Notes under the pieces: model-generated
What the model was told of the DNA's origin: nothing
Seen by the model: only the letters and a program-made list of their open reading frames with translations
Database searches by the model: none
Position numbers and translations under genes: made by a program
NCBI GenBank assembly: GCA_963402885.1
Contig: OY727095.1
Coordinates: 5,957,001-6,021,000 of the forward strand
From: Antedon bifida
Lineage: Eukaryota; Echinodermata; Crinoidea; Comatulida; Antedonidae
Direction: 5' to 3'
Length of the DNA stretch: 64,000 nucleotides
Shown: one piece after another, positions 1,935 through 60,118 of the stretch
How positions within the stretch are numbered: the stretch's first letter is position 1
Layout: each line of letters opens with the position of its first letter

Positions 1935-4900
1935 CTTCTCTTTGAGGTCTTTAATGACGATCTGAGCGCTATCCAGCTTGTCCAACGTCTCCTGTTCTTG
2001 TTGCTTAGTATAATGCAGTTCTTGCTTTACTTGGTACGAGTCTTCCGCCTCTTGCGCCCGTGTTAGTTGGTCCTGGATTAGCTTGTCTGCCAGGGTAATA
2101 TTCTCTTTTTCTAGGATGTCGATTCGCTGCCGAAGAAGTCTAGTTTCTGTGCGTAACCTCTGTGGAAAGATGTAGTTATAGTTTATCATTAAGGGGAATT
2201 TATGAATAAAATTATTTTATATTTCATTTATTGGAATTTAATTAAAACAAAAAAATTATTGAATTATATTGAAACATTCAGCAGTTATCTTTCATTTTTT
2301 AAAACAAATTTGATAAACTTTTTTTATTTTTGTTATTTCATACGCATCGTAACTCGCCAATTACAGGATGGATAAACTATTTTATAATTTATCGGGCTTA
2401 TAAACTAAGTCTTATTGGAGGCTTAGGGAGTGGAGTTGAAAGAGTCATGAGTTACCACCCTGGCACTAGGTCAAGATTGAACCCCGAACTTTGAGATTGG
2501 AAGTCAAGCATGTTATCTACCAAGCTTCATACTCTAAGCTCCAAGCTAATACTCATTTATACTATACTAATTTGTAAAATTATGAAGGAATTGTGCTTTC
2601 TAAAAGCTTTGCCCTTCTCTTTCTTACTGTTTTATTTTATAATTTTGATTTAGCTTTCTGCTTATCATATTTGTATCTCTTGTCTTGTATCCAGTCACTG
2701 ATACACACAGAATTTTTTCAGTAATTTGCCTTTTGATTTATACAATATATTAATGTTTGTTTGCTATATGATAACCAACATACAACAATGAAAACAAGTC
2801 TAACTTTGTATAATTAATTGATGAAATGAAAGGGAAAATGCCACCTACCCTCATTTCAACCTGTTCTTCCGTCTCTTTGGTCTTAAATGCTAAGTAATCC
2901 TTTTCTAACCTGTCAAATACAAAGAAGAAATGGGTTAAATGTATGGCTCTGTCTACACTATAAACTAGTTTGACATAAAAAGTGTGATGTGCCCAAATAT
3001 GGTAGTGATATGCACATTATTTTGTCACATAAAGTTTGATAATGTAGACAGAGCTTAAGACAACAAATCAATAAAAACATCTCCAATCCATTTTGTTTGT
3101 TTCACGAGATGATGGTTTAAGGAGGCAACTGTCTACTGAAATATTCAAATAATATTCTTACTAACCTTTTCATTTTTTTGGCATTATACTTGACTAGAGA
3201 GGCACTATTAATTAATATATCATGATCTTGACTATGTTTTAAAGGCACTGTTTTTTGAAGAAACTGAAACAAAAAAAGAAATATATGTAATCCGAATTGT
3301 TAATCAAAAAGTTAGAGTGGCGTTTGTAGTCTAGAGACCAATTTCGTTACCGTTTATGAGTATAGGATTAGTGACCAATTTGGTTACCATTAATGAGTAC
3401 AGAATACAATTAGAGATCAATTTGGTTACCTTTAATGAGTATAAGATTAGAGACAAATTTGGTTACCTTTAATGAGTATTAGATTAGAGACCAATTTGGT
3501 TACCTTTAATGAGTATACTGTAGGATTAGTGACCGATTTGGTTACTATTAATGAGTATAAGATTAGAGACCAATTTAGTTACCTTTAACATCTCTTCCAT
3601 ATCCATGGCAAGAAGTTCATCATGATGCATTTGAAGTATCGCCATTCCAATGCGAAATATAGTTTCCATGCCCTGAAAATATACAAATTTATAAAATTAA
3701 TGTGTATTTACTATTAATACTACTATTTATTTTATATATATTATTTATTGATATACATAATTGCCATGTAATTTGACCAATTGTAATGCGATGGATCATC
3801 TGAACTAATGATTGTGATTGGTCAACTCACTTGTGGGAACCAAGCTTAAAAAAAAAGACTAAAGCTCTGTCTACACTATCAAACTTAAGTGTGATGTGCT
3901 CAAATATGGTAGTGATATGTAGTGATATGACATCATCATGTCTATATATGGGCACATCACATAAAGTTTGATAGTGTAGACAGGGATTTAAATATAGATA
4001 ATACTTACATCTTGAATAAATAAATCCATAACCCTGCATGATAGTGGTATAGAGAAACACACTGAGAATAGCGTGAGGAACCAATGTGATGCGTACATAG
4101 ACGTGTGAAAACCTTGCGTGATAAAGTGGGTGTACAAATCTGGTAACAGTTCCTGTAGAAAATAAAGACAGATAATATCCATTTTTTAGGTTGGGATAAT
4201 ATGATTTCATTTTTATTAACTTAATTTACAATGCTGTGTTTTTATCATATATATGCAAAAATCCGTATAGTGCTTAACTTTATTTTTAACAAAATGCCCA
4301 TAGTTTGCTTTGTGTAAGTAATTTGTCTTATTTGTTTATGTTTGTCATGGTTTTTATTGTTCTTGTTCTTTTTATATGTATAATGGTAGCCACAAAAACG
4401 AGCATTGCTCTTCTGGTTTACGTTTTGCTTCATTTAAATATTTACTTTATTATTCTTATTGGGGGGTGGTGGTGGGTTTGGTTGGGGTGGGTTTGGTCGG
4501 GGTGACTGTGTGCTAATAGTGTGTATGATGAAGGAATAGTATTTTCAGAAAGCACTAATTTCTTGCTCTTGTTTATCGTTTTGATTTAGTCACTGATAAC
4601 CATTGTCATAATTCAGTAATTTGCTTTTGGATTTAAATATAAATAATAAAGCTCTGTATACACTATCAAACTAGTTTGACAACAAAAGTGTGATGTGCCC
4701 AAATATTGTAGTGATATTCCCATATATGGTAGTGATATGACATCATCGTGTCCATATATTGGCACATCTCATTTTTTTTTTGTTTGATAGTGTAGACAGA
4801 GCTTTAGTCTTTAATGAAAGAGAAAATGTGGAGACAGAAAGTAAATCCATCAGGAGGTGTTTACATAAAGAACTTTCAGTTTTGATTTAGAGAACGTTTA

Positions 4901-19559: not shown

Positions 19560-20142
19560 AGTATGCCTAGCTAGCAAGCAGCATGAGTGCAGGAGGTAGG
19601 TATCACCTCCACCACCGTCGCCGACCAAGCAAAGTACAAAAGTAGCCTAGCTAGTACTAGGCTAGCCTACACTGACTATTAAGTAGGCCTATTATCAATA
19701 TTTATCATTCAATAGTTTAGGTTACTTACTTTTAAAGCACTACTTCTTGCAGAAGAAGTATGGATAAATCACTAATTAAATCATGTCAACTTTCACAACT
19801 AAAAATATCTTAACTTGTCCCTCCTGTGTCAAATCAAAACACTGCTGTTTTACAGCAGCAAGCCTACAACTCGACAAAGCAGCGGACTTTGTGGGATGGA
19901 CCGCGAAACGGAGATTTATCAAATCACGCCCTCATTTTCAGAACAACACAGTACTGTACATTGTCATCAGTGACACGTAGTTGAACACTGTATGGCGAAT
20001 ACCACTGCAATGCAAAGTGTCTATGTTTTTTTGACGAAAGTAGTTTTCATTCAGTCGTTTTGCGGCAACCAAAATAAAACAGACTGGATTGACAACTAAC
20101 ACTCGGTCCGGTCCACTCTCTCCACTCTCGCAAAAAAAAAAC
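19560..20142. promoter_or_regulatory. Probable divergent promoter region, EVI5 / PIN1
   Basis: The sequence becomes GC-richer just before the PIN1 start and contains CTAGGCCT/TAGGCTAG-type words. On the minus strand TTTAAAA|GTAAGTAAC at 19729/19730 is a strong donor-like site, which could end a non-coding first exon of EVI5. No TATA box is seen. Placement of either transcription start is inference. Confidence 0.35.
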
Positions 20143-21096
20143 ATGGCAGACCAAGATTTACCGGAGGGATGGGTTATTCGTGAAAGTCGTAAAAACGGTT
20201 AGCTGTTTTTGCTTAATTGAAAGAAAATAGATAAGTAACATGTAAAAGCCATATTGATGGCCAAAGATTTTTCATAACAAATTTTCCCCATGGAATTAAT
20301 ACTTAATTTGATGTCTAAAGTTAGGCCTATCTCGGGTTGGTTTGAGTGTGATGCATGATTGAGAATTTTCTTGGGCGAGGAAAGGGGTTTTCCCTGGCTT
20401 TATTGGGATTTACCCTATTGCCATGATAATACTACTGTAATAACATGTAACTGCTCAACAAGCACTAGTCTTAGTAGGACTTAGTAGCCATATGCAGGAC
20501 TAGAATATAGAGAACTAAGTTTTACATACATAATTATTTTTTTTCACTTTCCATCAAAAAGGTAAAATATACTATCTGAATACGAAGACAAATGCGAGTC
20601 AATGGGAGAAGCCCACAGCAGCGGCATCGGATACTATGAGGTGTTCTCATCTGTTGGTGAAACATGTGGAATCGAGAAGACCATCGTCATGGAAACAGGA
20701 CACCATAACCCGATCCAAGGACGAGGCACTGGAGATATTAAAAGGTTTAAATTGTATTTAAATCATGGTTAAATTAACATTAATTTTAACACCTTTTTTC
20801 ATAATAATTAATACAGTATATATTGTTGTGGAAGAGCTTTTCCAGTTACAGTTTCAAAATCTAACTTTTTTTCAGGTCACAGAGAACGAATCGTTAGTGG
20901 TGAAATAGAGTTCAGCGAACTAGCATCTGAAGAAAGTGATTGTAGCTCAGCTCGTAAGGGCGGGGATCTAGGATGGTTCGGTCACGGTCAAATGCAACGT
21001 CCATTTGAAGAAGCTACACTGGCCCTTAAAATTGGCGATATTAGCGAACCTATTTACACCGATTCTGGAATTCATATTATTTATCGTACAGGGTAA
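20143..21096 (+). CDS. PIN1: PIN1 peptidyl-prolyl cis/trans isomerase
   Basis: Three exons, 20143-20197, 20562-20744 and 20876-21096, join in phase 1 at both junctions and give 152 residues ending [12 protein letters not shown]1 isomerises phospho-Ser/Thr-Pro bonds in nuclear and signalling proteins. The WW domain is visible (LPEGW with W10; ASQWEKP with W33 and P36). The parvulin domain follows, with H48 and K52 in CSHLLVKH, the phosphate-binding Arg pair R57/R58, catalytic Cys C102 in SDCSSAR, and the [11 protein letters not shown] and PFEEA motifs. The linker between domains is about ten residues shorter than in the human protein (163 residues). The start [10 protein letters not shown] matches the family N-terminus. 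A MITE hairpin begins about 75 bp after the stop. Confidence 0.96.
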
Positions 21097-22971: not shown

Positions 22972-25326
22972 TCATTTCTTGTGACCACCAGACGTACGGG
23001 GAAAGGTGTAACGGTTACGTGATGCTGCCTGATACTGGTATTCATATGCGAGTGGGTGGATTTTAAAACCGTAAAGTCTGAAAAGTAAAACAAAAAGTTA
23101 TGTAAATGTCTAAAATGTGAATTTTTTATTTCCATAAATCTTGGTTCCCATTTCAACGCGGTGCAACACAAATGAGTTGACCAACCACAAGCAACATTTT
23201 GGTTTGGTCAAATTAATTAATGGTTTTGCATTGTGCCCAAGTGGAATCAGAGATGGTTGATACAAAATTTTAAAATAGTGAGAAAAAAATTATAATTCTG
23301 CAGTTTTGGACAGTAATCTATTGGAGGTAAATATTTGGTACCTATTTACACCTCTGGGTGTGACATGACAAGTCTACATACCTGGGCACAAACTGGTTGG
23401 CTGGTCTTTTAGGACGATACTCAGGATGAACCATAAACAACATGTGTGGGAAGCCGGTACCAAAATAAGCACCGTCTGTGTGGTGGTGACGAGATGACTT
23501 AGGTGTGTAGACATCTTGACATTTTGGACAGTAAAGTTTCACCATTGCCTCCCCTGGCACGTCTGATAAACCTGAAAACATAACCAATAATAATTTACAC
23601 ATTTTGTTTTTTTTTTTCTAATTTTAGATATATAAGAACATTCACTAATTACTAGTACAACAACGTTTTCTAAAGCTCTGTCTGCACAATCAAACTTTGT
23701 GACAAAAAAAATGTGATGTGTGCCCATAGAATTCTGCGGTGTTGACGTCACACTGATAGATGGCGCACGTCACGATAGATGGCGCTGCGTGGTTGTTAGA
23801 CAACCAAAAAATGCTATGATGTTTGTAATATACATACCTATTGGTAGGACTGGCTGATTTTCACAATATACCCGTGGACAATGGCCGAAATCACCCTGCT
23901 GATACTTTTCAACCTATAAAATCATCAAGAAAAAATACTATTGATCAATCTATTTTACTTTACATATTCATCTATTTGTTTATAAATTTTAAATTTACAA
24001 AGTGCTATACATGTACTGAAGTTTTACTATTTTGATTAGTATTTACTTGGGCCAACTACATTATACTTAAAAATAAACGAAAGAAACCTCATGTTTAATA
24101 CGGCACTCCTACATAGAACCCGGACACCCCAATTAAGACACTTTCAGAAGGTGTCAAGTTTAAAGCTATGTCTACACAATCAAACTTCATATTATGCAAC
24201 AAAAAATGTGATGTACCATATGGACATGATGATGTCATATCACTACCATGTGGGTATATCACTATCATATTTGGGCACATCACACTGTTTTTGTCAAACT
24301 AGTTTGATAGTGTAGACAGAGCCTTAAGCTAAGTTTTTAATACAGCATGTAATATTAATATCCAGTAGTACTAGAACCCCTCACCCCCATGGGGCCTACT
24401 AGTTATTTATCTAAGATGGAGGTAAACACAGCCCTGAGCTCACCATTAATGCAATACCCCTATTTGTCATTATAAATCTGGAGTGTATGAGTCCATATAA
24501 CATCTCTGCCGCCTGTTCTATCAAATCACTCTGATTCGGATTCTCTTCTAGTTCATCATCTTAACAAAACAGAACATTTCATTATTACAAAAAAGTTACT
24601 CAAATTTATCAAGTATGAAGTACAATTAGATCGGGGAAAAATATCTGCCCAATTTCATTATCCAATTTCAATTAGAAATGAATTGCCAACATTTTGCCAG
24701 TGACACAACCATTGTAACGCTCATGCATTTAATATATTAGTATTTAAAAAAGATTTTCTAGCTATGCTATGCATGCAAATGAAAATGTTAGAATCCTACC
24801 AGCGATGACCTAAATTTCTTGATGATAAAATGTTGTTTGTTTTGTTTGTGAAGCTCTCTCTTTTAATCACTCTTTTTAGTCAAACACTGAGATTGTGTAT
24901 AGAAAATAAAACTGGGTTGATGATGATGACTATCGATGCTAATGACATACTAAGAAAAGACAGGTTTTTATTTGATCACAAATACCTGGTTCTAAGTCTA
25001 ATATCATATCTAAAGCTTGTCTGTAATGTGGAACTTGTTCATTCAGTCCTGTTAGGTTAAACTTGTCTTGAATATAATCTTCATCAACCTAAAAGAGAAA
25101 AAATATCATAAATTATGTTAAACATATTAATTGGGTGAGATGGAGTCATGGGCAGATTCATAATTTAGGAAACAGGTTACACACAATAATAAAGAAAGTA
25201 AACAAATGGCAAATAAATAAAATAACACAATTAAACGATAACATTATCACTTACTTCACAGAAGAATTCATTTCCTCGTAAACCACAGAACCAGGAAATC
25301 CATGAAACCTCTTCTGAACTGCTCAT
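22972..25326 (-). CDS. CSNK2B: Casein kinase 2 regulatory subunit beta
   Basis: Six coding exons: 25255-25329 (ATG at 25326), 24986-25088, 24444-24559, 23838-23913, 23382-23571, 22972-23077. Phases agree and give 220 residues. CK2 beta dimerises through a zinc finger and scaffolds the CK2 tetramer. Visible marks are the N-terminal [14 protein letters not shown] with its autophosphorylation-type serines, the acidic loop [13 protein letters not shown], and four zinc-binding cysteines: C109/C114 (GHCPRVYC) and C137/C140 (YCPKC). These cysteine positions equal the human ones, so spacing is unchanged to that point. The segment [22 protein letters not shown] is also kept. Only the tail after [17 protein letters not shown] differs from vertebrates ([12 protein letters not shown]). 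It lies head-to-head with the DUSP19-like gene. Confidence 0.97.
23671..23729 (-). mobile_element. MITE family 1, copy 10, half element
   Basis: Only the left arm is present. It stops at GTGTGCCCATAG and abuts a segment with two GATAGATGGCGC direct repeats (23755-23785), inside a CSNK2B intron. Confidence 0.75.
24161..24327 (-). mobile_element. MITE family 1, copy 11
   Basis: Full-length copy in the CSNK2B intron between exons 23838-23913 and 24444-24559, right arm intact. Confidence 0.85.
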
Positions 25327-26326: not shown

Positions 26327-27787
26327 ATGAATTTGCAAGAGCAATTGGCATCATCCAAGAGATCACTGAAGCCAGTTAGCACAAAAGTCATTACAGTTGA
26401 TGGTCAAACGTTTACAGAAAGAAGAAATGAAGCTGGACAATTTGATGTGACAACAAGAGGAGGAAGTGACGAAGGAGCATGCGGTGGAGGGGGCTGTTTC
26501 TTTGTAGTAGATTCTAAACCTGACATACAGGTTCTGAAAGTTCGACCTGGGTTATATCTAAGTAAATGTTTAAAATAATTATGTTTAGAGATACTAATAA
26601 GCACCAACTACCATCGGACCCAATTGCCATCAACAGATTTGATTTTGTCCTTTAAACTATATATGGGGGTTGATGTCCACGAGTGATTACATGTTGGCTA
26701 TACTTTTGTTGTATTATATATGTATTATATTTCATGCAAAGCTTATGCTTTCCTTCAATAATTATTTCTTTATAATTATCAAATTCCATCATTTTTTTCC
26801 GGAAGCATTTTAATTAAAAAATTTTTCTTTTCTAGGTAGCCAGGATGTAGCACATCGATTGGATCTTTTGAAAGAGCATGGTATTACGCATATTTTAAAC
26901 ACAGCTACTGGTGTACAAAACATATATCCTGATGTGTTTGTATACAAACATGTTGAGCTTTTGGATTTACCGGAAATAGATCTTACAAGGTATTTATTAA
27001 GGCCATGTCAATTGGGGTCACATGTTTTTATAAAAAGAAATGAATGCAAGTACAGTAACATGAAGCAAGGCAATCTAACAACAGAACACTGAGCTTGTCT
27101 TGCCAATATAGAAACTCCAGTGATGTAGCCACAAGAAATAAAGTGGTCCGCAGGTTGAAACCTTACCAACCGTACTGGTGGTTACGGCCCTGGACTCGTA
27201 ACTGTCTTTTGATCTTATGTATGGCTGCGAAAAATACCACGTAGTACTGTACTATGTATATATTCTCTGTTGTGTTTGTGATGATAGTATCTCAGCCACA
27301 TATAAACCCTTTGATCTCCGGAGCTCAGCATTCTGTTGTTAGATTGCCTTGCTTGAAGGCATGAATGACAAGTATAGCATACTACATGAGAATATGCAAG
27401 GATATCCATCCAATGCGATACTGGCCACTGACGGCTATGAGCACTCTCTGGCTAAATCCAGGAGGCCCTGCATGTCATGCCCTCTTACAAATAATACCCT
27501 GCCCAAAAAAAAAGTATTTTAATCAAATTATGTTTCCCCCTAGTTTCTTGGATGAATGTATTGAGTTCATAGATAAAGGAAGAAAGGATGGTTGTACGTT
27601 AGTCCACTGCAATGCTGGAGTATCTCGATCTTGTACAGTGATACTTGCCTACCTGATACGCACTGAAGGTGTTGATGTCAAACAGGAATTATTAAAGCTA
27701 AGAATACTGCGACCAAGCCTACGGCCCAATGATGGGTTTATGAAACAATTACAGGTTTTACAGAATGATCATAAGACTGAAGTGTAG
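26327..27787 (+). CDS. DUSP19: Dual-specificity protein phosphatase, DUSP19-like
   Basis: Three exons, 26327-26561, 26836-26989 and 27544-27787, join to 210 residues (human DUSP19 is 217). DUSP19 is an atypical dual-specificity phosphatase that acts on, or scaffolds, the JNK MAP-kinase pathway. The N-terminal region ends in a Gly/Cys-rich GACGGGGC stretch. The catalytic domain has SSQDVAHRLDLLKEHGITH, the LDLPE loop carrying the probable general-acid Asp, and the signature VHCNAGVSRS with nucleophile C152 and R158. The start at 26327 follows a good acceptor at 26313; an in-frame ATG at 26282 would add 15 residues if that intron is not real. Intron 2 and the 3' UTR carry dispersed repeats. The phosphatase identity is very secure, the DUSP19 orthology good. 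Confidence 0.9.
27425..27478 (+). repeat. GCTATGAGCACTC repeat fragment in DUSP19-like intron
   Basis: Shares GGCTATGAGC..CTCTGGCTAAA with the larger element at 27800-28010, lying just before the last coding exon. Confidence 0.55.
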
Positions 27788-29819: not shown

Positions 29820-32800
29820 TTACAGGATGGGCTCAATAGGCACTTGTATCCATACATTCTGAAAAACAAAAATAAAATTAATACTATAATTTTTTATTTT
29901 ATTTAAAAAGCAGTGAATATGATAAACTTGTGTGATATTATTTAACTTGTTTTTATGGACCTTCTGTACACAATGACTTGTGACCCATACAAATCCGGGA
30001 TGAGGAATAAATCGAAGATCACATACCAACTTCCCTGCAGGCGCACCATGAATTGACATGACATAACTTTTTTCTAAATAACAAGGTCTCTTTACACTAG
30101 GAAATATTACTTTGAATGAGCCACTGAAAACACTAGATTGATATTATATGTTTATTAAATAATACCTCTCTGGCATGACATGTCCACCTCAAGGCAGCCT
30201 CATCGTCTCCAAAATAGCCAGCACAGCTAACAACTGCTGCATCTTGTGTCCCACTAATACTGCAATAATATGGATACAAATGCATGGTTAGAAATAATCA
30301 GTAAATACCACTAATACTGCAATAATACAGATACAAATGCATGGTTAGAAATATCAGTAAATACCACTAATACTGCAATAATACAGATACAAACGCATGG
30401 TTAGAAATAATCAGTAAATACCACTAATACTGCAATAATACAGATACAAACGCATGGTTAGAAATAATCAGTAAATACCACTAATACTGCAATAATACAG
30501 ATACAAACGCATGGTTAGAAATAATCAGTAAAGAATAAAAAGCTTGTTGGGTAGAGTCTGTTTTGTATTAATGTAAAATAATAATAATAATTTCAATTTC
30601 AATTTCTTTTTACTTTGGAAATATCATCCATATTAATAAGCTTATAAACAGAAAAAGAAAAATCGTAAACTCTAAACTTAAGTTTAAAATCCTGGATCTA
30701 TAAAGTGCCTAAATGCTGTAAATAAATAAAAAGCTCTAAGCGCTGTACTTATGATCATTATGTAGTCTTACTCAAAAAACTATTATTACTGGGCCAAAAA
30801 AAAATTTATAGAAAATGTACTTAAGGATGTAATTTATACTTTTACTAATTAATTTCTAGAGTATACAGGAATCCAGCCAGACATTCTCGAAGCAGCGCCC
30901 TCTATTGACTCGCTCAAGTATAATCCCATCATCTTATTTCTCCCGAATTCCATACCCAATGCAACTGGCACTTGATGCAGTTATATGGTATAAACAATTC
31001 AACATGTACATACTATTACTAACCTTGATTGTACAAGACATCTAACTGGACATTCAGATATCTTATGCTGGACTTGTACTTCCAGGTCAAATCTCGGTTG
31101 AACAGCAATTTCTGAAAAGGCAAAGCTTGGCGGCAGTTCTCCTTGCAAGAGCATAGACATCACTGACTTTCTCTGTATTTTCTTAGGGTCTTTGCTGAAG
31201 TCCTCTGGATCCTCTGGTACTGGTGTGATGGTAGAGTTGGTTACATGTTCCAAACAAGTGGAGTTATTTGGCTCTTCAACGAATATTTGACTCAACCGGT
31301 ATCTCCTTGACTTCCTTGTTGCCCCACGTTTCAACTTATTAATTTTACCAATTACGCTCTGAACTTTTTCCATTGGTTTCGATGTTTCTGGTCCACTGAC
31401 TTCATCTTCAGGCTTTTTAACTTTTGTTGAGGCAATTTTTTTCGATCTTTTAGAACTTGAATGAAGAAGTTTTCTAACAGTTTGAGGACTTGATACCATT
31501 TTAGCCTTGATTTTTCCTCTTCTATTTTGTTGTTTGCGACCATTGCGGTATTTAGTGGTATACTGAGCTTCTTCTACTTTTAATTGCTCAACTGATGAGG
31601 GAGGCACGATTACAAAATCTCCTTCACTTTCAAGACTCTGTTTATCAACATCACTGATACTAGTTGAAATAGCAGATTGTCCATCTCTAGAATCGCTATT
31701 ACTTCCACCAGAAACCGCAGAGCTCTTATTGGACGACACACGAAGAAATGTTGACTTTCCACAAACTATGTTCCCTGACCTTAATTTTACGCTGGAAGTA
31801 AACTCTCCGCTAATGGTCAAGTCGTCGCTCACTAGAAATTCACCAGATGCACACAAAGTTCCATTGGTTTCGATACTTGATTCTAAGGGGTTTTCAAATT
31901 CTGGTGGGTAAGTTCTGTCATCTGGTGGGAAGGTTCTGTTTTCTGGTAGGAAAGTTCTGTTTTCTGTTGGGTAATTTCTGTCATCTGGTAAGTAAGTTCT
32001 GCCATCTGTTGAATATGTCCTTTCTACCTTTTTTCTTTCATTTCTTATATTCATTCTTTCATTTTCTTTATCACATGGTTCTTCTGTTTGAACCTCTTTT
32101 TCAACAGTTTGTTTATGAGCATGCTCCATGGGAAGGTGAAATATTGGAGGAAGTCTTCCATCTAAGCTCAAACCAGAAGTAGCCTGTGACAGACTATCAA
32201 GATCACTGCTTCCACCAATATCAACTGATAGTACAACCGGCGTTATGTCCGTCACAGAGGACGCCACCGATGCAGATTCTGAAACAGATTCAAAACAGCT
32301 TTCTTTACTGTGAGCTGCAGAAATTCTATTTCCATCAGATTCAACATCACTTTGCTTCTGATCCCCGGAGAAGGCACTCACATTGCCAGAATCTCTTTGT
32401 CCAGGAATTCGAGATATGTCGCTAGAGGTTATGTCCGATTCTGTTACAGATCTGTTCTCTGGACAAGGATATTCTGGTGCAACTGGATTATTAGCAACCA
32501 TTGATGCTGCAAGATCATAAAGGTTTACAATGACACCCTGATGGTCTTCGTTGATGTTGCCAAGTTTATCCATTAAACCATGCTGTTCTGTCATTAGGCC
32601 AGTCTCCATTAGATTCTGGTTTTCCTGTAACTGGTCATAGTTTTCCTCTAGGTGGTCATAGTTCTCTTCTGAATGATTATAGTTTTCTTCTAAATGATCG
32701 TAGTTTTCTTTCAAATGTTCATAATCCTCCTTTACATGATCACAGCTTTCTATGTTCCGATATTCATCTTGTTTAGCATCAGATTCACTGGTGTCTAAAT

Positions 32801-35800
32801 CTTTCTCAAATGATGAATCCGTATTTTCACTTTCTTTTCCAATACTCGTTGAGTTTTCTCTTGAAACTGCTGCAATTACACTGTTTCTATTTTCTGAAAA
32901 AGCTTCAGTGACATCGTTTCTGGAATCTGAAGTTTGTTCTGAGCTTGACTCCTCTCCAATATCAAACAACGGCCTTCTTGGATCATATCTGAATCCATCC
33001 ATTGTCACGACACTCTCCATACTTGCTTCATAACCTCTACTGTCCAAGCTCTCCTCAAAGCCTCTACTATCGATGCTGGTGTCAAAGCCTCTACTGTCGA
33101 TACTAGTTTCAAAACCTCTCGTCTCGAAGCTGCTTTCAAAACCTCTTGTATCAAGACTAGCATCAAATCCACGGCTATCGACACTTGTTTCAAATCCTCT
33201 TGGATCCACACAAACCTCTAACCGCTTCATGTCTGCCTTTGCTTGCCTTCCATCGTCATGGACTTTGACTGCTCTTGCGCTTACACTGTCTTCAAGGTGA
33301 TCTTCCTCTGAAAGAAATCCTTCGGAACCCTCAGACCTGAAGCAATCACGAGAATCTACCATTCCTTCTAGGACAGATAATGGATCAATTTCGTGGATGT
33401 TGTAAATGATCAGGTGACCATCTGCTGTTCCTACCCACACGGTGTCATGATATGGTAGAAGTGCCGTCACTCTTGGCGCTGTCAACTCGCGCATCTGAAG
33501 AAATCAAGAATGGTTGGTTATACAATAAATAACACTGCATGGCTCTATTGTGCCTATCTTATCAAGTAATCTTGTAAAACATACTCAAATTTGAAACGAT
33601 ACTCATTAAAAGAGTATTTAATTTAAACTGATGAAATACAATGTATGCATCTATAGTAATCAATACTTTCAAAAATTGTTATGTGCTACGTAAAAGAACA
33701 TATGCATTTATATACTGTAGCATTTACTTAAATAAATATTATTACAAAAACGAAAAGTTATAGCATACTTTTAGAGATGCTGGAGTACACATATAGTCCA
33801 TAGCTGTGTCGAAAACCATAATGCACGTTAAAGTTTTCACGTCCCAGAGACCGAAGGCAGAAGAGTTACGGATCGTGATCCACACTCCGTGCACGTCAAC
33901 CACCATGTTGTTGATGTGCACACCAGGATTCTTAGACACATCAAACGTTTCCAACAAGTCAAGTTCACTAAATATGGTTGAAAAAATATTATTAAACATG
34001 TTTACTCTATCAAGCTTTATGTGACATATATGGACATGATGATGTCATATCACTACCACATTTGGGCACATCACTCTTTAGACATAGTGTAGTCAGAGCT
34101 TTATGATAGTAGTACATCACACAGCATGTAAAAACAATTTCTCTTCTCAAAAGTTGCATTATGTTTGTAGATATTAAAACAGAACTTTTAAAAACACTGA
34201 ATGCATCCATTAAATCAACCAATAAATCAACCAATAAAGACTCATCCATCATCAAATAATTATTATCATATCTAATCATAAGAGTCATTATCATTCCCAT
34301 CATTCTCCTACATCTTGTTGATTACCACCACAAAAATCATTAACAACAACCATGGAAATCATTATGACACCATCCAATGGCGAAACGGATATGAGCGATC
34401 ACTGGCTAAACTCAGGGGCCCCAGAGGTTAAAGGGCCTTGTATGAAAAGCCCCAATGCAACTACCCGTTTGAGGGCCCATTAGGAGTGCTAAACCAGGGG
34501 CCTTTGCCCCATGTGTTATGCTACTGACACTATCACCATCCACAAACATACATCATAGTCTACTTCTTTGTGTTTGTAATTTACAATCTTATGATGGTTT
34601 ATAGGCAAAACTTTGTTGATAACTAAAATGAAATAAATACCCAAAAACCAAATCGATCAGTCAATAATATAATGATTTTAAAAAAAAAAGAAGATTTTGT
34701 TAAGCATGCAGTACATATAGCTAATTATTCTTACTCGCTAAGAATGCTGACAGAGTTTCCACATCCACACCATATCTGCTGCATGCCTTCCAAGTAGAGC
34801 ACAGCTTTCACTGGACTCACTCCTATTGAATGGTAGAAATTATCCATTGGCGTAGTGTCCGATATAGTCTAAGAAATAGATAAAGACAGAATTTTAGACA
34901 CTGATCAACTGACATGTAAACCAGGGGCGGATCTAGCATTATATAGCTAAATATTTCATAAATGATAAAAACAATCCGCTGCAGAAAAAAAAAATTTAAA
35001 TGACATGGCTGTTAAATTTTATGGGGCCTAAATTCGCACCTGCTAACCAAAATTATTATGGAGGGTCTAGGCAATCCAACCAACAAAGTTTTAAAGTCTA
35101 GGTTTGTCTTATGAATGGATTGTCACTTGTATCAGGCATCAAATAAAATTCCCTTTTGATAGTCCTTGGCAATGTGCGTAAATAAAATAACAATTAAAGC
35201 CTACATATTATGCACTATCTATTGCATATTTACCTCGACAATTGCCAGTGTGCCATTGGCTAACCCCGCATACAGGTTGCTACTCTTTACATGGAATGCT
35301 AAACTAAGAGGAGTGTCATGTAATCTTAAACACCAAAGCTCATCTCTACAAAACAAAGATATAGATAAATTACAATTACAATTTACACAGATTATATTTT
35401 CTTTTCATAATAAAGAACTCCTCAAATGTTTTACCACTACAGTATAAGCGCTCAATAGCTAAACTCAGGTGAACCGGAGCTTACGTGCACCTTGAGCAGG
35501 GCCAGAGGAAAAACAGGTTTTAAAATATGTCAAAAAAGGTTAAAAGCACCAGAAGCCTGGGGTCCCTAAACTAGGGCTCCGGGCCTCTGCGTTTATGCCA
35601 CTGCACTCCTCTCTTATATATAGGTATCAAAATCAGAGTCATAATTAAAATCTATTTTCATTGACTAGACAGGACAATTTTAGAAGAAAAGGTTCATAAT
35701 AAAAAGAAAAACAAACTTACTGGGACCTTATACTATAAGCATACAGATACCACGATAAAGTTCCTACAAGCACAATGTCGGAACCAGCCATAGTCATACA

Positions 35801-36168
35801 CACAATTTGAGAATCCAACTGTAACAGAAAAAAAAGAAGTATTAACGTCTTACAAAAAGTGATTTTTCAATCATAAACACTGGTGGTGAGTACCATGTTG
35901 TATAGCGGCATACAAACGATGAAAAACAATGACTTCTTGATTAAAGCTCTGTCTACACAATAAAACTAATTTGACAAAAAAAGTGTGATATGCTCGAATA
36001 TGGTAGTGTCCATATATTGGCACATCACATTCTTTTGTCACATAAAGTTTGATAGTGTAGACAGAGCTTAACTTACTACAATATTAAGCGTGTCTTTTGT
36101 ACATTTTTCAGCGTCCACAATGCCAAGCCAAGCCTCACGGATATCGCCTCTACATACAAGTAATTTAC
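29820..36168 (-). CDS. Beta-propeller (WD40-like) protein C-terminal region, possibly LRRK-family; 5' exons not found
   Basis: Nine exons fit by phase: 36077-36168, 35721-35818, 35234-35345, 34735-34868, 33769-33967, 31024-33494, 30166-30259, 30027-30089, 29820-29858 (stop). Propeller-blade strands recur: ICM-type DSQIVCMTMAGSDIVLVG, SNLYAGLANGTLAIVE, QQIWCGCGNSVSIL, VHGVWITIRNSSAFGLWD, YHDTVWVGTADGHLIIYN. After the long insert come VVSCAGYFGDDEAALRW and the end NVWIQVPIEPIL. This layout recalls the C-terminal propeller of leucine-rich-repeat kinases, but ARHGEF10-like or other scaffold propellers cannot be excluded. The first exon found starts in phase 1 without a Met, so coding exons are missing upstream, yet another gene's stop lies at 38232 on the same strand. 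The acceptor of exon 30027-30089 (TAAAG) is weak and was chosen for phase. Confidence 0.7.
30251..30533. repeat. 57-bp tandem array spanning the 3' splice site of a propeller-gene exon
   Basis: CCACTAATACTGCAATAATA starts at 30251, 30308, 30364, 30421 and 30478 (spacings 57, 56, 57, 57). On the minus strand each unit reads TATTGCAG|TATTAGTGG. The 30251 copy is the true acceptor of exon 30166-30259; the other four lie upstream in the same intron. Confidence 0.92.
31024..33494 (-). CDS. Giant exon coding a disordered insert inside the propeller
   Basis: 2,471 bp, 823 codons, open throughout, with CAG|ATG at its acceptor and TCAAG|GTTAGT at its donor. The first ~40 codons finish one blade and the last ~25 start the next. 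In between is low-complexity, acidic and Ser-rich sequence with three peptide arrays: seven 9-residue units of type DSRGFETSI (33018-33206), six 7-residue units of type DHLEENY (32616-32741), six 7-residue units of type RTFPPDD (31896-32021). A basic block with clusters such as KRSKKIASTKVKK follows. ATG at the exon start is probably internal, because the previous exon joins in phase 0. Confidence 0.85.
34001..34103 (-). mobile_element. MITE family 1, copy 12
   Basis: Right arm shortened. It lies about 34 bp outside the acceptor of exon 33769-33967, so it may overlap the branch-point zone. Confidence 0.75.
34371..34525 (+). mobile_element. CAGTGGCGTAGC-type element, copy 2
   Basis: Shares GCCCCAATGCAACTACCC and AGTGCTAAACCAGGGGCC with 27800-28010; ends GTTATGCTACTGAC. 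In a propeller-gene intron. Confidence 0.6.
34922..35060 (+). mobile_element. Possible hAT-like remnant
   Basis: Starts CCAGGGGCGGATCTAGC, a terminus widely seen on hAT non-autonomous elements. The far end is not clear, so limits are approximate. Confidence 0.35.
35439..35607 (+). mobile_element. CAGTGGCGTAGC-type element, copy 3
   Basis: Diverged copy: AGTATAAGCGCTCAATAGC at the left, CTAAACTAGGGCTCCGGGCC inside, TTTATGCCACTGCAC at the right. Confidence 0.5.
35943..36070 (+). mobile_element. MITE family 1, copy 13, beside a 5' splice site
   Basis: The right end is only about 6 bp from the donor GTA|GTAAGTTAAG of exon 36077-36168. The GTTAAG of the donor merges with the element edge. Confidence 0.85.
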
Positions 36169-38231
36169 CTAGCAAAAGTAATTATAAGTTATTAGTACAT
36201 TGCACAGAATGAAGGTGATGCATATATTAAATAGTATACAAATAATGAATGTTTATGAGTGAAATGGTACAAATATTTTCATGAGACGAAAGATGAAAGG
36301 TTATATTTTTACTGAGGTTAAACTTGTGAAAACAGAACAATGGAGTATTTATTAAATATCATGTGACCTACCATTCTATGACATTCATTCAAATGACAAG
36401 GATATACTTTAAGTGTTATTTTAATAATTATATAAATAGTAGTAATAGAATAAGTTTACTTTTACACAAATTACACAAAGCACATCCAACACCAAAAACA
36501 TTAATTTGTAAGGTACAAACTGTCTATAATTTTAAAAGCTCTCAAATTGTAATTAACTATTATTTTAGCAGTCCTACAAAACACCACAGGGAACCACAGG
36601 GAAGTAGTACATCATTTTGAAAACCAGAAAAGCATAAATAATTATTTGGAATAATTGTATTATTGCCTGCCCATGAGATTTAGCAGCAGTGTACATATTT
36701 ATTGTACTTTTTAATTTGATTAATATTAGACAAATAAACACATGGTACATTTACACAAAACACAATGAAAAAAATGTTCATTTAAAGATGTATTGTCCCC
36801 CAAAAACATAAAAAATGAAGATTAATTAAATCAGACTTTGAATAGGTTATTTTGTAGTTTAAATAAAGTTAATCACTTTCGTATAAAAAAAAAAAACCAA
36901 AAAAAAAATGTTTTTACTTATAAAATAACATATAAATGGTTAAATTCAACCAACAATCCATTGGCTGGCAGCCAATTTGACCATTTTCTTCTTTAAATTA
37001 CAATTTTTTCAGGTAAATACAATTTTTTTACATCCGATTTTTGGTCAAAGTGGATAATTATTATGTGACATTAAAATTCCATATTCAACAAAAAAATTGT
37101 AAAAATTATTTTTCAGGGGGACAATACATCTTTAAAGTGTGCACTGCTCCATTTTATAAACAGGGGATAGATATACTAAAACTAAAACAAACAATAATGA
37201 TCACATTTGATGGAATTAATTTAAACATTTATGTTAGTAGCTAAAATACAGTACATCATTCTAAATTAATAATACTGTAGTATAAAATAAGTAAAAGTAC
37301 TACAGTTACTACTGACAGACACCAATCACAGAAATAGAGATATTTGTTTGGTGCCAGTGTTAATACACAATATGAAGGCATGTTATTTTTTTTTAGGCTT
37401 CAGTGAGTACATCAAGAATTATAATATTCTACTTCAACTATGGTGAAGCTGCAGCCATGGTAAATCTGCAACCATGGTGAAGCTGAAACCATAGTGAAGC
37501 TGCAGCCATGGTGAAGCTGAAACCATGGTGAAGCTGCAACCATGGTGAAGCTGCAACCATGTTAGAAGATACAGCCATGGTGAAGCTGTAACCATGGTTG
37601 AAGATGCAGCCACTGTGAAGCTGCAGCTATGGTAAAGTTGCAACCATGGTAAACCCGCAACCATGGTGAATCTGCAAACAATGGTGAAGCTGCAACCATG
37701 GTAAAGGTAGAACCATAGTAAAACTACAACCAAAGTGAAGCTACAACTATGGTTAAGTTGCAACCATGGTGAAGCTAAGACAAGCATTGTTAACTACAAA
37801 GTTTGATGATCTCTATTCTAAAATTCAAAAAGTTTTCCATATAATACCAAGCATTTTCTAGATTTCTACATACGCCACAGACACACACAGAAAAGCAACG
37901 AAACAGTGGTTAGCAAAAAAAAAGAAGAAGAAAACGTACAACTCCACTCACATGTTAATCATAATCCTGTTTCAACTGAATAAAAGAAATCAATGGCGCC
38001 TGCAGTATCCAAATATTCACGGCCAGCTAAAGTCTTATTGCTGCTGCAGGATAAACTAAATGATTCTGTACACAACAAATTCTCGATAGTCTCAAAATTC
38101 TACAAGTTTTTAAGGTCTGTTTGCCGCAACGTTTAACTATACGTAGATGCTAAATATTTACATTACTATAGAACATATGGTAGAAATGGGTAAAAGGCGG
38201 ACTGTAGTAGAAAAAGTGTGATTGGACGAAA
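36169..38231. other. Interval between propeller gene and TBC1D2-like gene
   Basis: I searched here for the missing 5' exons of the propeller gene and found none. It contains T-rich and A-rich DNA, the minisatellite at 37434-37790, and presumably the TBC1D2-like 3' UTR. Confidence 0.5.
37434..37790. repeat. 17-18-bp minisatellite, CCATGGTGAAGCTGCAA type
   Basis: About twenty imperfect units, many with NcoI-like CCATGG. The minus-strand ORF across it, with repeats such as SPWLQLHHGCSFT, exists because the unit is close to a multiple of 3; there is no splice or family support for a gene. Confidence 0.9.
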
Positions 38232-41200: not shown

Positions 41201-44200
41201 AAATCTCACTCTTTCCACCTGGTTTGGCACTAAGCAATGACTGGCATATATTATTGGGTGATAAGACACCAGACAACGAGTTACTCCATTTTTTTTGGAC
41301 AATTGGACAAGTATGAGTAATACAGGGGAATATCACTACTATGTTTTTCATTATAAGACTTGACAATAACCTAAAAACTAAATATAATTCCAGACAGTGT
41401 GTCTACAGATCTAAACTTTGGAAAAACATGAATTTTGACTGACATAAACCTTCTTGAACATGAATGATAAACGAGTCTACAAAAGTAAGACTATTTTTCA
41501 AACTGTCATAAAGTATCTAAAAGTTTTTGTATGATTACATATGCATTTCATTTAATTTATTATTCAATAAAATTTCTCCTATAATGTTTCAGACATTTTC
41601 TTTAGTGTGGAATTAAATTTACAAAATTTATATAACCATTTAAAAGTTAATTAAGCTCTGTCTACACTATGAAACTAGTATGAAAAAAAGTGTAATGTGC
41701 CCAAATATGATATCATCATGTCCATATATGGGCACATCACATAAAGTTTAATAGTGTAGACAGAGCTTTAGTTTATTAAAATCTTTTTGTTATAAATGAA
41801 ATTCATAAGTATCAACAAAGGAGATCAGATTGAAAGTTCGGACATAGTTTCTGATTTACAATATCCCATCATATCTTAATACATAATGTAATTCAATCTG
41901 TTTTAATGTCTGATAAAAACATACATTGAAACATATTACAGATTATGTGCTTTATGTAATAGGATTATAGAAACGAGGACAAGGACCGTGTCAAATTAGC
42001 AACAAGACATGAACTTAAGTGAATAATAACGTCTACTTAAAGAAATAAGTGCTTGGACGTATTAGAGGGGTATGAGTGGGTATGTCAAATTCCTCATTAA
42101 TTAAGCGAACAAATTACTACATCTAGTTATCTTTCGTTACGACATTTTGATCAGAATTTCGGTCCCGGTTGGTTTATGTTCTCTTAAATTAAATTAATTT
42201 CAAATTGTCCGCAGTGACAAATTTAAGTGCAAATCGGTTTGCGTTTATAAGTACCAGGTTCGATGCCATTGCAGACGTCACATGACTAATGAACATGCAC
42301 CCTACGAACCCTATCTGCGAAAGATCATGCTCCGGCCAGCAATTACAAGAATAAAATTAAATTTGATGGAAAGCAGGGACGTTCGAGCACCCCTAGTATC
42401 CTCAGGGGGTATGTTTAACATTTGATACGTCTCTTTAAATGGATTATTAGACATATTCAATTTGTTTGATAGAGGTCTTTGTACCTTTTCTTGTTGCACT
42501 TGTCTAACTCTGTTAAGTACCAACTTAGTCCATACATCACTGCGGATTTCTGAAGGAATTCCTCGTCTAACAAGACTTCTCAACTCATCCTACAATAAAA
42601 AAGAAACAAATATTAAATTCAGTAATAGTATATTTGCTTTCAAACTTATTTCAACTTGAAAGTATAAAGCTCTGTTTACACTATCAAACTTTATGCGACA
42701 AAAAATATGATGTTCCCATATATCGACATGTCATATCACTACCATATTTAAGCATATCATTACCATATTTGGGCATATTACACTTTTTTTGTCACACTAG
42801 TTTGATAGTGTAGATTTAGCTTTAGGTTTGTGGTACACCATGTGTTTCTAAAAGGAAAGGAAATAAAGTAAAATTGAGTTGAATCTAAATTATTTTGACT
42901 TCTTTCCATGTTAAAATACAAATTATATAATATATATTAATATTAATTTTGATAAAAGTGTCTAGAGAAATTAAATAAAAGAAACATATTAATATATTTA
43001 TATATATTAATATAACATATTATAATATAATACTATAATTCCATGCTCGAGTCCTGGCTCGATTGTGTATAATCTCACCCCTAATTTAGACTAAATTCAG
43101 ACACACACCATTAGTAAATCCACTGTAAATACCAACCAAGTTTAATCCCATACCCTAATTTTCATACCCAGCCACCAGAAACCCTGAGTCGTATACAGTA
43201 TATAATTTCACAGGCTTACTTTTCATTAATAACAGAAGGTAGTAATGTTTTACAAAGATTCTCTCAACACAATCAATGAAAAAACCTGCTTGTTAACCGC
43301 AGCGAGTTAGCAACATATGAAGGTAATTTAGACTTCAAAGCGCACTTCCACATCAGGGTGTGAAAAACAAGATGTGCCTGAGTGCTTGCAAACACTAATG
43401 TAATCGCATTCTCACACTCTTGTAATCAAATTGTGTTCATACATAAAAATAACTACATTAAGACATCAGAGAACGCAGCATAATGTTGTCCATAACATTA
43501 GTCATGTATGTATCGTGGAAAACATGTAAGAGAGAATGGCAGAACATGAAAACGATGTACAGTACATATCAATATTAACATTTTAAATGTATAATATTAG
43601 TCATGTATGTATCGTGGAAAACATACAAAAGAGAATGGTAGAAGTGACATGAAAATTATTTACAGTATATATCAATAACATTTTGAATGTATAACATTAG
43701 TCATGTATGTATCATGGAAAACATGTAAAAGAGAATGGTAGAACATGAAAATGATGTACAACATACTGTATGAATAACATTTTGAATGTATAACATTAGT
43801 CATGTATGTATCGTTGAAAACATGCAAAAGAGAACAGTTGAGAACATGAAAATGATGTACAGTATATCAATATTAACATTTTGAATGTAAAACATTATTA
43901 ATGTAAAATAGAGCCTCTTTATCAAATTTGGATGCTCAAATGATATGAAGTATGAGTTTTTATTTTAAAGTGTGGCTCAAAATCTCCCTGCATGTTATAT
44001 CTTTTTTCATGTTAAATCTTAATTATGTGTTAGATTTCGAAAAGGTTTCACCAAACAAGCATGGAAGGGAAATCAACAATGAATATGCTTAGTTCTTTGT
44101 TTTTAAATCCTGTATTACTTTTGTTAATGTTATTTTGTACATACTTTAAGTTTCCTTGTAAATAAGCCTATTGTTAAATCTTTATATATTTCACTTATTC

Positions 44201-47200
44201 TGGATGCACCTTCATTCAAGAAGTGTGCCTGTTTTAAAAGTGTAGCTTCCAAATAAATTATTATTATTATGTAAATTTAATTTAAAGAAATTTATTAAAG
44301 CAGAATATCAACATTTTAAAAAACTGGATATCATTTTTTACTGCATAATTTAAGTAAACTAGTGTAATACAGGAAGAAGCATGGGTAGTAATGTGTCTCA
44401 AATCTATCAATAAACTGACGATTGAATGTAATCAAAATGCCACAGAGACTGGACTTGAGGAAGTAGTTCAAATTAAACATTCAAGTAACGAATACATAGC
44501 TGTCACATTTATTTAGTGTTCATTAAATTATAATGTAAAACTATAATTATTTAACAGAAACTGCAATTTATGACTTTTAAGACTTTTGGTATTGAGATAT
44601 TGGTTGATAAATGTTCAAAAGGAATACGGCGTATAAAGCTCTGTCTACACTATCAAACTTTATGTAACAAAAAAAATGTGACGTGCCCATAAATGGACAT
44701 GATGATGCAATATCACTACCATATTTGGGCATATCACTACCATATTTGGGCACATCACACTTTTTTTGTCAAACTAGTTTGATAGTGTAGACAGAGCTTA
44801 ATAATTTTGGTATTAAGATATTGAATGATGAATGAACTAATTGATTCTCAGAAAAATGTTAAAAATGAATACTGCGTATGCGTATAAAAACAAGGCACAG
44901 AGGGTGGTGTAAAAATGGGTACCTGGTAAGGTCAAGACACAACTTTGCGCTGATTACTAGCTGCATTATGGGAGTATGTTCCCCTACGTGTTTGATCCAA
45001 AAATGACCGGGGTAATAATATTCAGTGCTTAGAGGTTTCACAACATTAGGTGCTTTATAAATCCTGGATATTATTATTATTAAACAATATTAGCTGAATC
45101 TTTATTTATCTACTATATTGATAGGATTGTTTGGAAAATCTCAACAAATCCAATCATGTCAAAGGTCAACCTACAGAATACTGACATTATGTTAGATGTT
45201 ACCATTTCAGCATTTCTTGTACAAATAGGTTCCGAACAGTTTCTTTTGGCCGCTGTTAGAGCACTGAATGTACGAGAATCATGTCAAAGACACAATCAAT
45301 TGAACGAATGAATATATCCTAAGAGTATATCCTTTAATGAAGTAATGAAGTATTAGTAAAACGGCATATACCAGGGAGATGTATTACATCTCCCTGCATA
45401 TACCAACATTTCTTTCATTTGCTTTTGTGAAGAAAAATGACCTTTGACATTCATGCAACCTTTGACTTTTTTTTTCTTTTTATACATCTGTGACATTTAA
45501 CTTCTTTACTCACTAATGCAATTATATTATCTGAAAGCATGCAAGTCTAAAATAAGTTTTTTTTTTGTATTAACAATGGTTGTCAGTTAACACCATATGG
45601 TTTGTATTACGTACTCCTTAACTTACTTTTTTAATAACTTGCTTTTAATTACCAAAAATACTGCTACACGAGATTAGTAAACTACTCTATATATGACCAT
45701 AAAATGACCATATTCACTAGCTTTCTTTTGTTTTAAAAACACACAGGTTTTTCTACTAAAGGTATTTATTGCCGCCCTCAAGCTTAACTGGAACTCGGAT
45801 TAGGCCCTCTATGTAAACTTACCGTCACAATAATTTGGTTGGAATGGGCTTCAAAGTATTTTTGCCACTGTAGTAACACTTGCCTTTCCTCCTGTGAATT
45901 GAATACAAACGGTCATTACTGTCGAAAATGAATTTGTGTTCAATTTTACAAATACCTAGTTTAACAGGGTGAGGGGGAGGGGGAGAGGGGGAGGGGGAAG
46001 AAGAAGCATAGGTGTTGTCCTATTTGCCCAGGCAACACCCTTCATACCTATATTTTTTTTGTCATAAATAATAAGTGTTAAGATGAAATCTCCCAGATTG
46101 TCAGGTTCCCTAAACCTTCTTAAGGCAGAAAGGTTTCACCTTTGAACTTTCACCTTTGACCTTTGTGGGTATATGTACCTCTTTCATATGTGTATCTATT
46201 GATAAATTTAAAAGTCACCTTGATCTGTGATTTGAACTGTGTACAGATCTTATTGCACAACTGTTGCACTAGTATTGGCTGGTTGTCTGGGTAATTAACA
46301 AAACCATAACTATCAACAAAACCATCTTGCATCATCGTTCTACAGAAAACAGAAACATTATCAAAATAATATTTTTTTTGGTGATTTTATTAAAAAAACC
46401 ATTAGAAAATAACAAAAATATCATAATTAATGAAAGTAAAATGAAGATTTTATGGTGATGACATGACTATGATGATATTATTGTGATTAAAAATGGTGTT
46501 TACGTCACAAAAGAGAACAAAAAACCCATTATTTCTTATATTAGTAGTATTCATACATTGTGTTGCACATTACTGTTATATTACAACTGTGTACTTTCCT
46601 AATCTATGATGGGTGACTTGGATCTGCTTAAGTTGTTAGCCTTTTTTTACATTTCATAAGTATATTTATTGTGTAGCACGTATGAAGAAATGATGTTTCT
46701 CAAAGCCTGGCAATTTCTTTCTTTATAGTTTTGATTTTTTTAGATTATAAACAGATTTCAAATAAGTTAACTATGATTTAGGTCACATCTATCACTGTCA
46801 CAAATGTTCTCATCTTCAAATTTATTCACATAGTTTTTATTAAGTGAAGTTTCTTAAATTCCTTGTCTATTTAAATATTCTAAGATTCCTTAAAGATCTT
46901 ATCGCCATAGCGATCCCTGGATTTCTAGGGTAAATTTGGCCGACACCACGGCACAAATACATTGCAATTTAAATTGAACTATACTGAACCAAAAAATGTA
47001 TCAAAAGTTAATTTAGATCATCAGAAAAAGAAACAAAAAAAAAAGAACATTTTAATAAAGTAATAGTATAATTGGCAGGGGATGCACTTAAGTTGACGCT
47101 GTTAGGAAAAGATTAGTTAGGACTTAAGACAACCAGTAGACACGAGACTTAATTGTGTACTTAACATTTATATTTAAGTTTGTACAAATTATTCACTTAC

Positions 47201-59972: not shown

Positions 59973-60118
59973 GTTCAAACTTTATGTGACAAAAAAATGT
60001 GCCAATATATGTACATGATGATGTCATATCACTACCATATTTGGGCATATCACTACCATATTTGGGCATATCACACTTTTTTGTCTAGTTTGATGGGATA
60101 GTGTAGACATAGCTTTAG
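59973..60118 (-). mobile_element. MITE family 1, copy 22
   Basis: The left terminus is lost; the right arm has a GGGATAGTG interruption. Confidence 0.75.

Follow-up and report, generated by a model that had tools for sequence, protein, structure and literature searches.

Five near-identical 3' splice sites stand head to tail at an exon of a gene for an LRRK2-type beta-propeller in the crinoid Antedon bifida. The tandem array that carries them is probably an ordinary minisatellite whose founding unit lay across the exon edge; the site next to the exon would have been kept, the array tolerated, and the decoy sites either ignored or cleared by nonsense-mediated decay (NMD) with some leak. It lies in the window, the 64,000-nucleotide stretch of DNA analyzed here (C8:5957001-6021000, with 65 predicted junctions), and a sample of exons from elsewhere in the genome shows it to be one of many junction-straddling arrays.

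The acceptor array and its host gene

The array (Table 1) has 97% matches between copies (TRF score 529) and reaches nine bases into the exon. The minus strand has five copies of the junction sequence TTGCAG/TATTAG (slash, splice boundary) at spacings of 57, 57, 56, and 57 bp, one unit thus being one base short, which bears out the claim of an earlier note that the acceptor had been copied four extra times upstream together with nine bases of exon. All five copies have TATTAGTGG in common, and each unit contains a branch-point-like CTAAC motif, with 28 nt separating its A from the exon start, followed by a weak T-rich tract, CAG, and the nine exon bases. The three distal copies differ from one another only in one base at their outer end; the fourth copy lacks one T and has one base in common with the authentic copy, which differs from the distal type at three positions. 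These graded differences fit step-wise tandem copying. A second AG, six bases inside the exon, has a low score (1.83).

As is typical of minisatellites, the repeat consists of head-to-tail units of between 10 and 100 bp and is specific to its locus (57 bp x 5.0, one genomic match in the one assembly used). In a DNA search of the whole genome of the species (315.6 Mb in 27 contigs, very common words skipped) the only match was the locus itself, which rules out a mobile element or dispersed satellite, and exact matches to the pattern in viral contigs numbered zero. A chance likeness of AGs is ruled out by the 97% unit identity over 282 bp. Folding of the array as RNA gave a z of +1.65, with 98 of 100 shuffles folding at least as well.

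Table 1. Positions of the features in the window (all on the minus strand)
Feature	Position	Strand	Basis
Tandem array, 57-bp unit x 5.0	30251..30532	-	TRF
Exon, 94 nt; frame-continuing acceptor 30259, donor 30165	30166..30259	-	gene-finder prediction and frame; acceptor score 8.60
Decoy acceptor 1, first exon base 30316, +57 nt	30316..30317	-	score 9.53
Decoy acceptor 2, first exon base 30372, +113 nt	30372..30373	-	score 9.53
Decoy acceptor 3, first exon base 30429, +170 nt	30429..30430	-	score 9.53
Decoy acceptor 4, first exon base 30486, +227 nt	30486..30487	-	score 9.53
Putative branch-point motif CTAAC, authentic site	30287..30291	-	motif and distance; coordinates derived
CTAAC equivalents in the other units, putative branch points	30344-30348, 30400-30404, 30457-30461, 30514-30518	-	motif
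Weak donor GTG/GTATTT, 8 nt past a decoy AG	30308 (equivalents 30364, 30421, 30478)	-	score 6.46
Upstream exon; donor G 31023, AAG/GTTAGT, score 9.27	31024..33494	-	gene finder
Predicted last coding exon, ends VWIQVPIEPIL and stop	29820..29858	-	prediction; 29858 is the best-scoring acceptor in the intron
Donor array (AAAG/GTAAC), TBC-domain gene	3332..3588	-	TRF and copy listing

The exons were predicted with a small gene finder, whose training set was other exons of the window plus a 200-kb sample from C1 (10.0-10.2 Mb). The trained version returned exon 30166-30259 and the donor at 31023, while an untrained run put the exon end at 30188. When exons 35721-35818, 35234-35345, 34735-34868, 33769-33967, 31024-33494, 30166-30259, and 29820-29858 are joined through the acceptor at 30259, they make one open frame of 1048 residues that ends in ARENVWIQVPIEPIL and a stop; the joined exons cover 35818 to 29820, and past about 30215 the gene end is a prediction. 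The introns on either side of exon 30166-30259 are 764 and 307 nt long by coordinates. With the long insert omitted, the propeller part of the joined exons matches Pfam PF23748 (LRRK2 beta-propeller) at 94.7 bits, against a cut-off of 26.9. When PF23748 was searched against the whole genome, the one match listed was to a single exon on C16; the propeller gene was missing from the result because that search scores single exons. A PDB search with the propeller alone found a weak LRRK2 match (E 0.0013), and one with part of the low-complexity insert retained found no LRRK match. The host protein is called an LRRK2-type beta-propeller by its Pfam match, and no orthology with LRRK2 is claimed. The long exon of this gene also holds in-frame coding tandem repeats of 21, 21, and 27/54 bp (31900-32011, 32619-32750, and 33024-33211), which sit in the insert between propeller strands.

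Only the acceptor at 30259 carries on the propeller frame. When the frames are joined, each of the four upstream acceptors gives VQSSISGIY and then a stop, as the earlier note had read it (ISGIY, then a stop), because the next unit supplies ATT TAC TGA. That note had the last blade removed, which is close to the mark: the protein loses 40 C-terminal residues and gains IY, and the PF23748 match shrinks from residues 2-258 to residues 2-243 (90.7 bits). The stops lie 132, 188, 245, and 302 nt ahead of the next junction, itself predicted. A stop more than 50-55 nt upstream of a junction marks a transcript for NMD, as in poison exons, and the decoy transcripts would therefore be eligible for it. 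Predicted acceptors scored with the trained matrix have quartiles of 6.56, 9.19, and 12.01; since the scores of the decoys and the authentic site (Table 1) fall among these, all five look like middling, plausible sites.

Junction-straddling arrays in the window and beyond

The second array described in the earlier note, which multiplies a donor, is real. It lies in a gene, called EVI5 in that note, of which one exon matches a TBC domain at 36.6 bits. The authentic donor has its G at 3582 and scores 9.71; five decoy donors score 8.55 (3503, 3466, and 3429), 6.42 (3387), and 6.0 (3350), and all five read into NLILINSNQIGH and a stop.

Arrays of this kind were also found in an independent sample of 118 conserved exons from elsewhere in the genome, each with about 250 nt on either side. 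The sample comprises 40 of 84 myosin, 38 of 139 kinase, 40 of 137 kinesin, and none of 123 SNF2 matches, and it was taken down the match lists with many near-identical paralogues skipped, so it is not a random draw. It provides 212 junctions, namely 101 acceptors and 110 donors above the score limit and one myosin donor identified by eye. Arrays span three of the 212, in three unrelated genes (1.4%, 95% interval 0.3-4.1%). Tolerated arrays of competing splice sites, one of the possibilities raised in the earlier note, are the best fit.

In the first case (L081 and L083; G000:C16:11962687-11964593), a kinase exon ending TPCYTPYYV/GTAAGT, which we take to be MAPKAPK and activation-loop-like, bears an array of 51 bp x 13.0 with 98% matches that includes 29 nt of exon and presents 13 donors of equal score. 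A 51-bp unit is a whole number of codons and each of the 12 decoy extensions stays open, so use of the decoy donors would insert 17-residue repeats without a frameshift. The second case (L049 and L084; G000:C7:16384948-16386660) is a myosin-head exon ending SATGFPT, with the donor CAG/GTCAGC, an array of 128 bp x 10.5, eleven GTCAGC donors, and 41 nt of exon. Its in-frame donor is at 429, and an alternative call at 501 scored 3.47, under the score limit. Several similar myosin matches are present on C7 besides this one. The third, a kinesin acceptor (L109; G000:C10:32400487-32401196), is a close analogue of the propeller-gene array: a 70-bp unit is repeated at least 4.0 times with 20 nt of exon, and three upstream decoy acceptors each lead to stops. 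In all five junction arrays, the two in the window and the three outside it, the site that continues the frame is the exon-proximal one. In the C1 sample a predicted coding end is likewise spanned, together with its stop codon and the following sequence, by an array of 111 bp x 10 (19658-20750 of joined L002-L021), and there too the boundary leaves one side free. All these cases would be explained most simply if a founder may straddle a boundary and its copies persist when they pile up on the non-coding side.

Two arrays anchored on junctions in 64 kb had seemed too many for chance, but that argument does not hold, because junction-straddling arrays recur in the genome. At the rate of 3/212, 0.92 would be expected for the 65 junctions of the window (P of two or more, 0.24); if only the two automatically found cases are counted, the expectation is 0.62 (P 0.13). 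The result of placing arrays at random depends on the null, and P for an excess at junctions runs from 0.0018 to 0.47 over the window and sample nulls. The window has a high content of tandem repeats: TRF returned 49 rows, which merge into 32 arrays making up 6.65% of its length, and the 200-kb sample has 54 arrays (4.47%). With free overlap, which takes no account of selection on exons, arrays cover 3.7-6.7% of the window and 2.4-4.2 of the 65 junctions should be covered, against the 2 that are; of the 173 predicted junctions in the 200-kb sample, arrays cover 0-1 against 3.8-7.6 expected, so arrays there avoid exon edges. The sliding-array null moves whole arrays at random, as grown blocks, with at most 10 nt of exon permitted, and expects 0.07-0.34 in the window (P 0.0018-0.045, or 0.006-0.18 with the 200-kb sample added); permitting 15 nt of exon changes these to P 0.004-0.089 and 0.013-0.32. 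In the founder null, a unit of period P lands at random and then multiplies. It expects 0.40-0.70 in the window against 2 seen (P 0.06-0.16) and 0.7-1.6 at 139 outside junctions, where 2 were also seen (P 0.15-0.47). We hold the founder null to be the right one, because an array grows out of a unit rather than moving as a block, but this is our own choice and the sliding-array null disagrees.

The sampled exons allow the same comparison with local rates (210 junctions). For arrays of at least 2.0 copies, the local intron rate gives 1.5 expected against the sampled cases (P 0.18-0.20), while for a period of at least 20 and at least 2.5 copies the local founder rate gives 0.33 against three (P 0.005). 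The sliding-array null and this strict-filter threshold leave room for an excess at junctions. Coverage by arrays with a period of at least 15 and at least 2.0 copies was 7/208 at 180 nt, 12/210 at 150, and 10/211 at 100 on the intron side, 6/211 at 50 and 4/212 at 20 nearer the edge, 3/212 at 5 nt on either side of it, and 1/212 at both 30 and 60 nt inside the exon. With the stricter filter (period at least 20, at least 2.5 copies) the coverage is nearly flat as far as the junction, with 4/208, 4/210, 5/211, 3/211, and 3/212 at 180, 150, 100, 50, and 20 nt in the intron, 3/212 at the edge, and 1/212 and 0/212 at 30 and 60 nt in the exon. The numbers are small, and there is no bump in coverage at the exon edges of these 212 junctions; a seeded process should give one, which argues against the earlier suggestion that duplication is seeded there.

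Origin and likely behavior of the array

A history consistent with the observed anatomy would begin with a 57-bp segment that by chance straddled the intron-exon edge. Tandem copying would then have stacked extra copies on the intron side, sparing the exon and the acceptor nearest to it, and every extra copy resembles a complete 3' splice site. The exon-proximal acceptor would be the one most likely chosen, with sites pairing across the short exon, because that exon lies between introns of 764 and 307 nt; Carranza and colleagues report such pairing across the exon where introns are over about 250 nt (PMC9225289). In the available text of the same report, however, the preference for the upstream of two 3' sites is lowered in long introns and not reversed (PMC9225289), which counts against an exon-proximal choice, and the decoys have slightly the higher scores (9.53 vs 8.60 for the authentic site). 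Transcripts spliced to a decoy would stop five codons on, and should either fall to NMD or yield a protein without the end of the propeller. Some leak to the decoys is likely, and NMD would hide it. The array would thus be tolerated, probably with some leak.

The same anatomy could act as an attenuator of dosage, in which the upstream acceptors take a sizeable and roughly constant share of transcripts that is then degraded, and repeat number tunes the output of the propeller gene. We consider this rather unlikely. The four decoys are equal to or stronger than the authentic site, all of them lead to a stop 132-302 nt ahead of the next predicted junction, and the length of the human ABCA7 repeat is reported to affect both expression and splicing, but retention of an ABCA7 unit is described as rare and independent of length (PMC5954066). 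An AT-rich in-frame stretch of 57 nt is estimated from base frequencies to contain a stop about three quarters of the time, so the decoy stop is no sign of design. A regulated switch is still less probable, and very unlikely in our view. Here, factors would shift the choice of acceptor by tissue or stage to give full-length or truncated propeller, or to turn the gene off. The anatomy allows switching, with a poison-type stop in all four decoy forms, but the array as RNA is less stably folded than shuffles (98 of 100 at least as good) and the copies are 97% alike, from which the array would be young or homogenized. To judge from reading frames, a switch would be most attractive in the kinase gene, where every one of the 12 decoy donors keeps an open reading frame, rather than in the propeller gene. 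Hardly credible is a series of microexons, in which an acceptor and the weak donor 8 nt on define an 8-nt exon, TATTAGTG, used once or more. Donor-like sites are present in four units and score 6.46 vs 6.92 for the exon's own donor, but even one 8-nt insert puts translation out of frame and soon ends it, and exons are usually far longer than 8 nt.

A further reading concerns how the arrays began and not what they do: repair or replication at junctions, or structures linked to transcripts, might start tandem copies there more often than elsewhere. The two arrays in one window, the low P values of the sliding-array null (0.0018-0.045 in the window, 0.006-0.18 with the sample), the P of 0.005 from the strict filter in independent exons, and the 111-bp array over a predicted stop codon and the sequence after it all speak for such seeding. 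It is nevertheless quite unlikely, given array coverage without a junction peak, the few covered junctions of the 200-kb sample (0-1 of 173 predicted, against 3.8-7.6 by free placement), and founder-null P values of 0.06-0.47 (0.18-0.20 for at least 2.0 copies). A bolder proposal, which we regard as unlikely, is that splice-site minisatellites stand at about 1 in 70 junctions and that some are real splicing dials, such as the five acceptors of the propeller gene and the 13 identical, in-frame donors of the kinase gene, which could add 0-12 17-residue repeats.

Related systems and neighboring features

The one clear published precedent found, as far as the available text of the sources goes, is the VNTR in intron 18 of human ABCA7, which also starts at an exon edge with a unit that includes the authentic splice site (PMC5954066). 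Each unit there begins with a splice donor, the authentic donor of exon 18 being one of them, and the repeat is tolerated with little unit retention (PMC5954066). When the next donor is used, one unit is retained and an early stop follows; the early-stop forms increase under cycloheximide, and unit retention rises when NMD is blocked (PMC5954066). Of the two frameshifting forms, reported at 14% and 2% (PMC5954066), we take the smaller to be unit retention. The ABCA7 repeat concerns a donor, with a 25-bp unit in 12 to about 427 copies that varies from person to person, is linked to disease, and has had its splicing measured (PMC5954066), whereas the propeller-gene array concerns an acceptor and has a 57-bp unit with its own branch-point-like motif in five copies. 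The propeller-gene array shares with ABCA7 a unit that holds an authentic splice site and is repeated into the intron (five acceptors with nine exon bases each); it does not share the repeated donor, which is found in the companion, kinase, and myosin arrays. No genome-wide count of junction-spanning arrays turned up in the literature listings searched, a result of little weight. The cases in two further reports (PMC7536079 and PMC8912139) are not junction arrays.

Other systems share only part of this anatomy. The VNTR in TERT intron 6 is likewise an intronic minisatellite that alters the splicing of its gene, but its distance from exon junctions exceeds 1 kb, and it is said to work through RNA pairing and has units that, unlike those of the propeller gene, are not presented as splice sites in the available text (PMC3948165, PMC11830802). 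NAGNAG-type acceptors also give an exon several usable acceptors, with AGs a few bases apart and a common branch point (PMC2279118, PMC2951375), while the propeller gene has whole 3' splice sites 56-57 bp apart with CTAAC in each unit. Equal or near-equal sites compete in duplicated-site constructs as well, and position decides between them; that work, in its available text, dealt with pairs of sites, in laboratory constructs and in human EST data (PMC9225289), and the series here is natural, with five acceptors or 13 kinase donors. Intron gain through tandem duplication of coding sequence similarly multiplies splice signals, but produces a new intron within an exon (PMC2891723, PMC4974935), whereas in the propeller gene the end of an old intron has been multiplied and none gained.

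The choice of the spliceosome among equal sites has been studied mainly on engineered duplicates. This genome offers natural, near-identical competing series of five acceptors (propeller), 13 donors (kinase), and eleven donors (myosin), in which position changes while the sequence hardly does, so that its effect could be read out; length variants would serve as a dose series. Annotation and short-read mapping may go wrong at junctions that bear arrays, and repeat-rich genomes may quite generally give rise to junction-straddling repeats such as that of ABCA7. If the reading as splicing dials were true, the birth of repeats at exon edges would be a steady source of heritable, length-variable control of splicing.

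The remainder of the window contains other repeats and genes. A 21-bp unit, GTGATATGCCCAAATATGGTA or its complement, forms short arrays at 4690-4739, 5075-5124, 5612-5661, 6922-6970, 42732-42778, 44710-44758, 52284-52377, and 60025-60074 and also occurs at several sampled loci; it is probably part of a dispersed element. An array of 17 bp x 19.9 at 37435-37776 has open frames on the minus strand. Neighboring genes encode a WW domain (20534-20758, plus strand; presumably PIN1-like), casein kinase II beta (23345-23617, minus strand), and a dual-specificity phosphatase (27365-27787, plus strand), and a second TBC-domain gene (38.2-42.6 kb, minus strand) lies on the same strand as the propeller gene.
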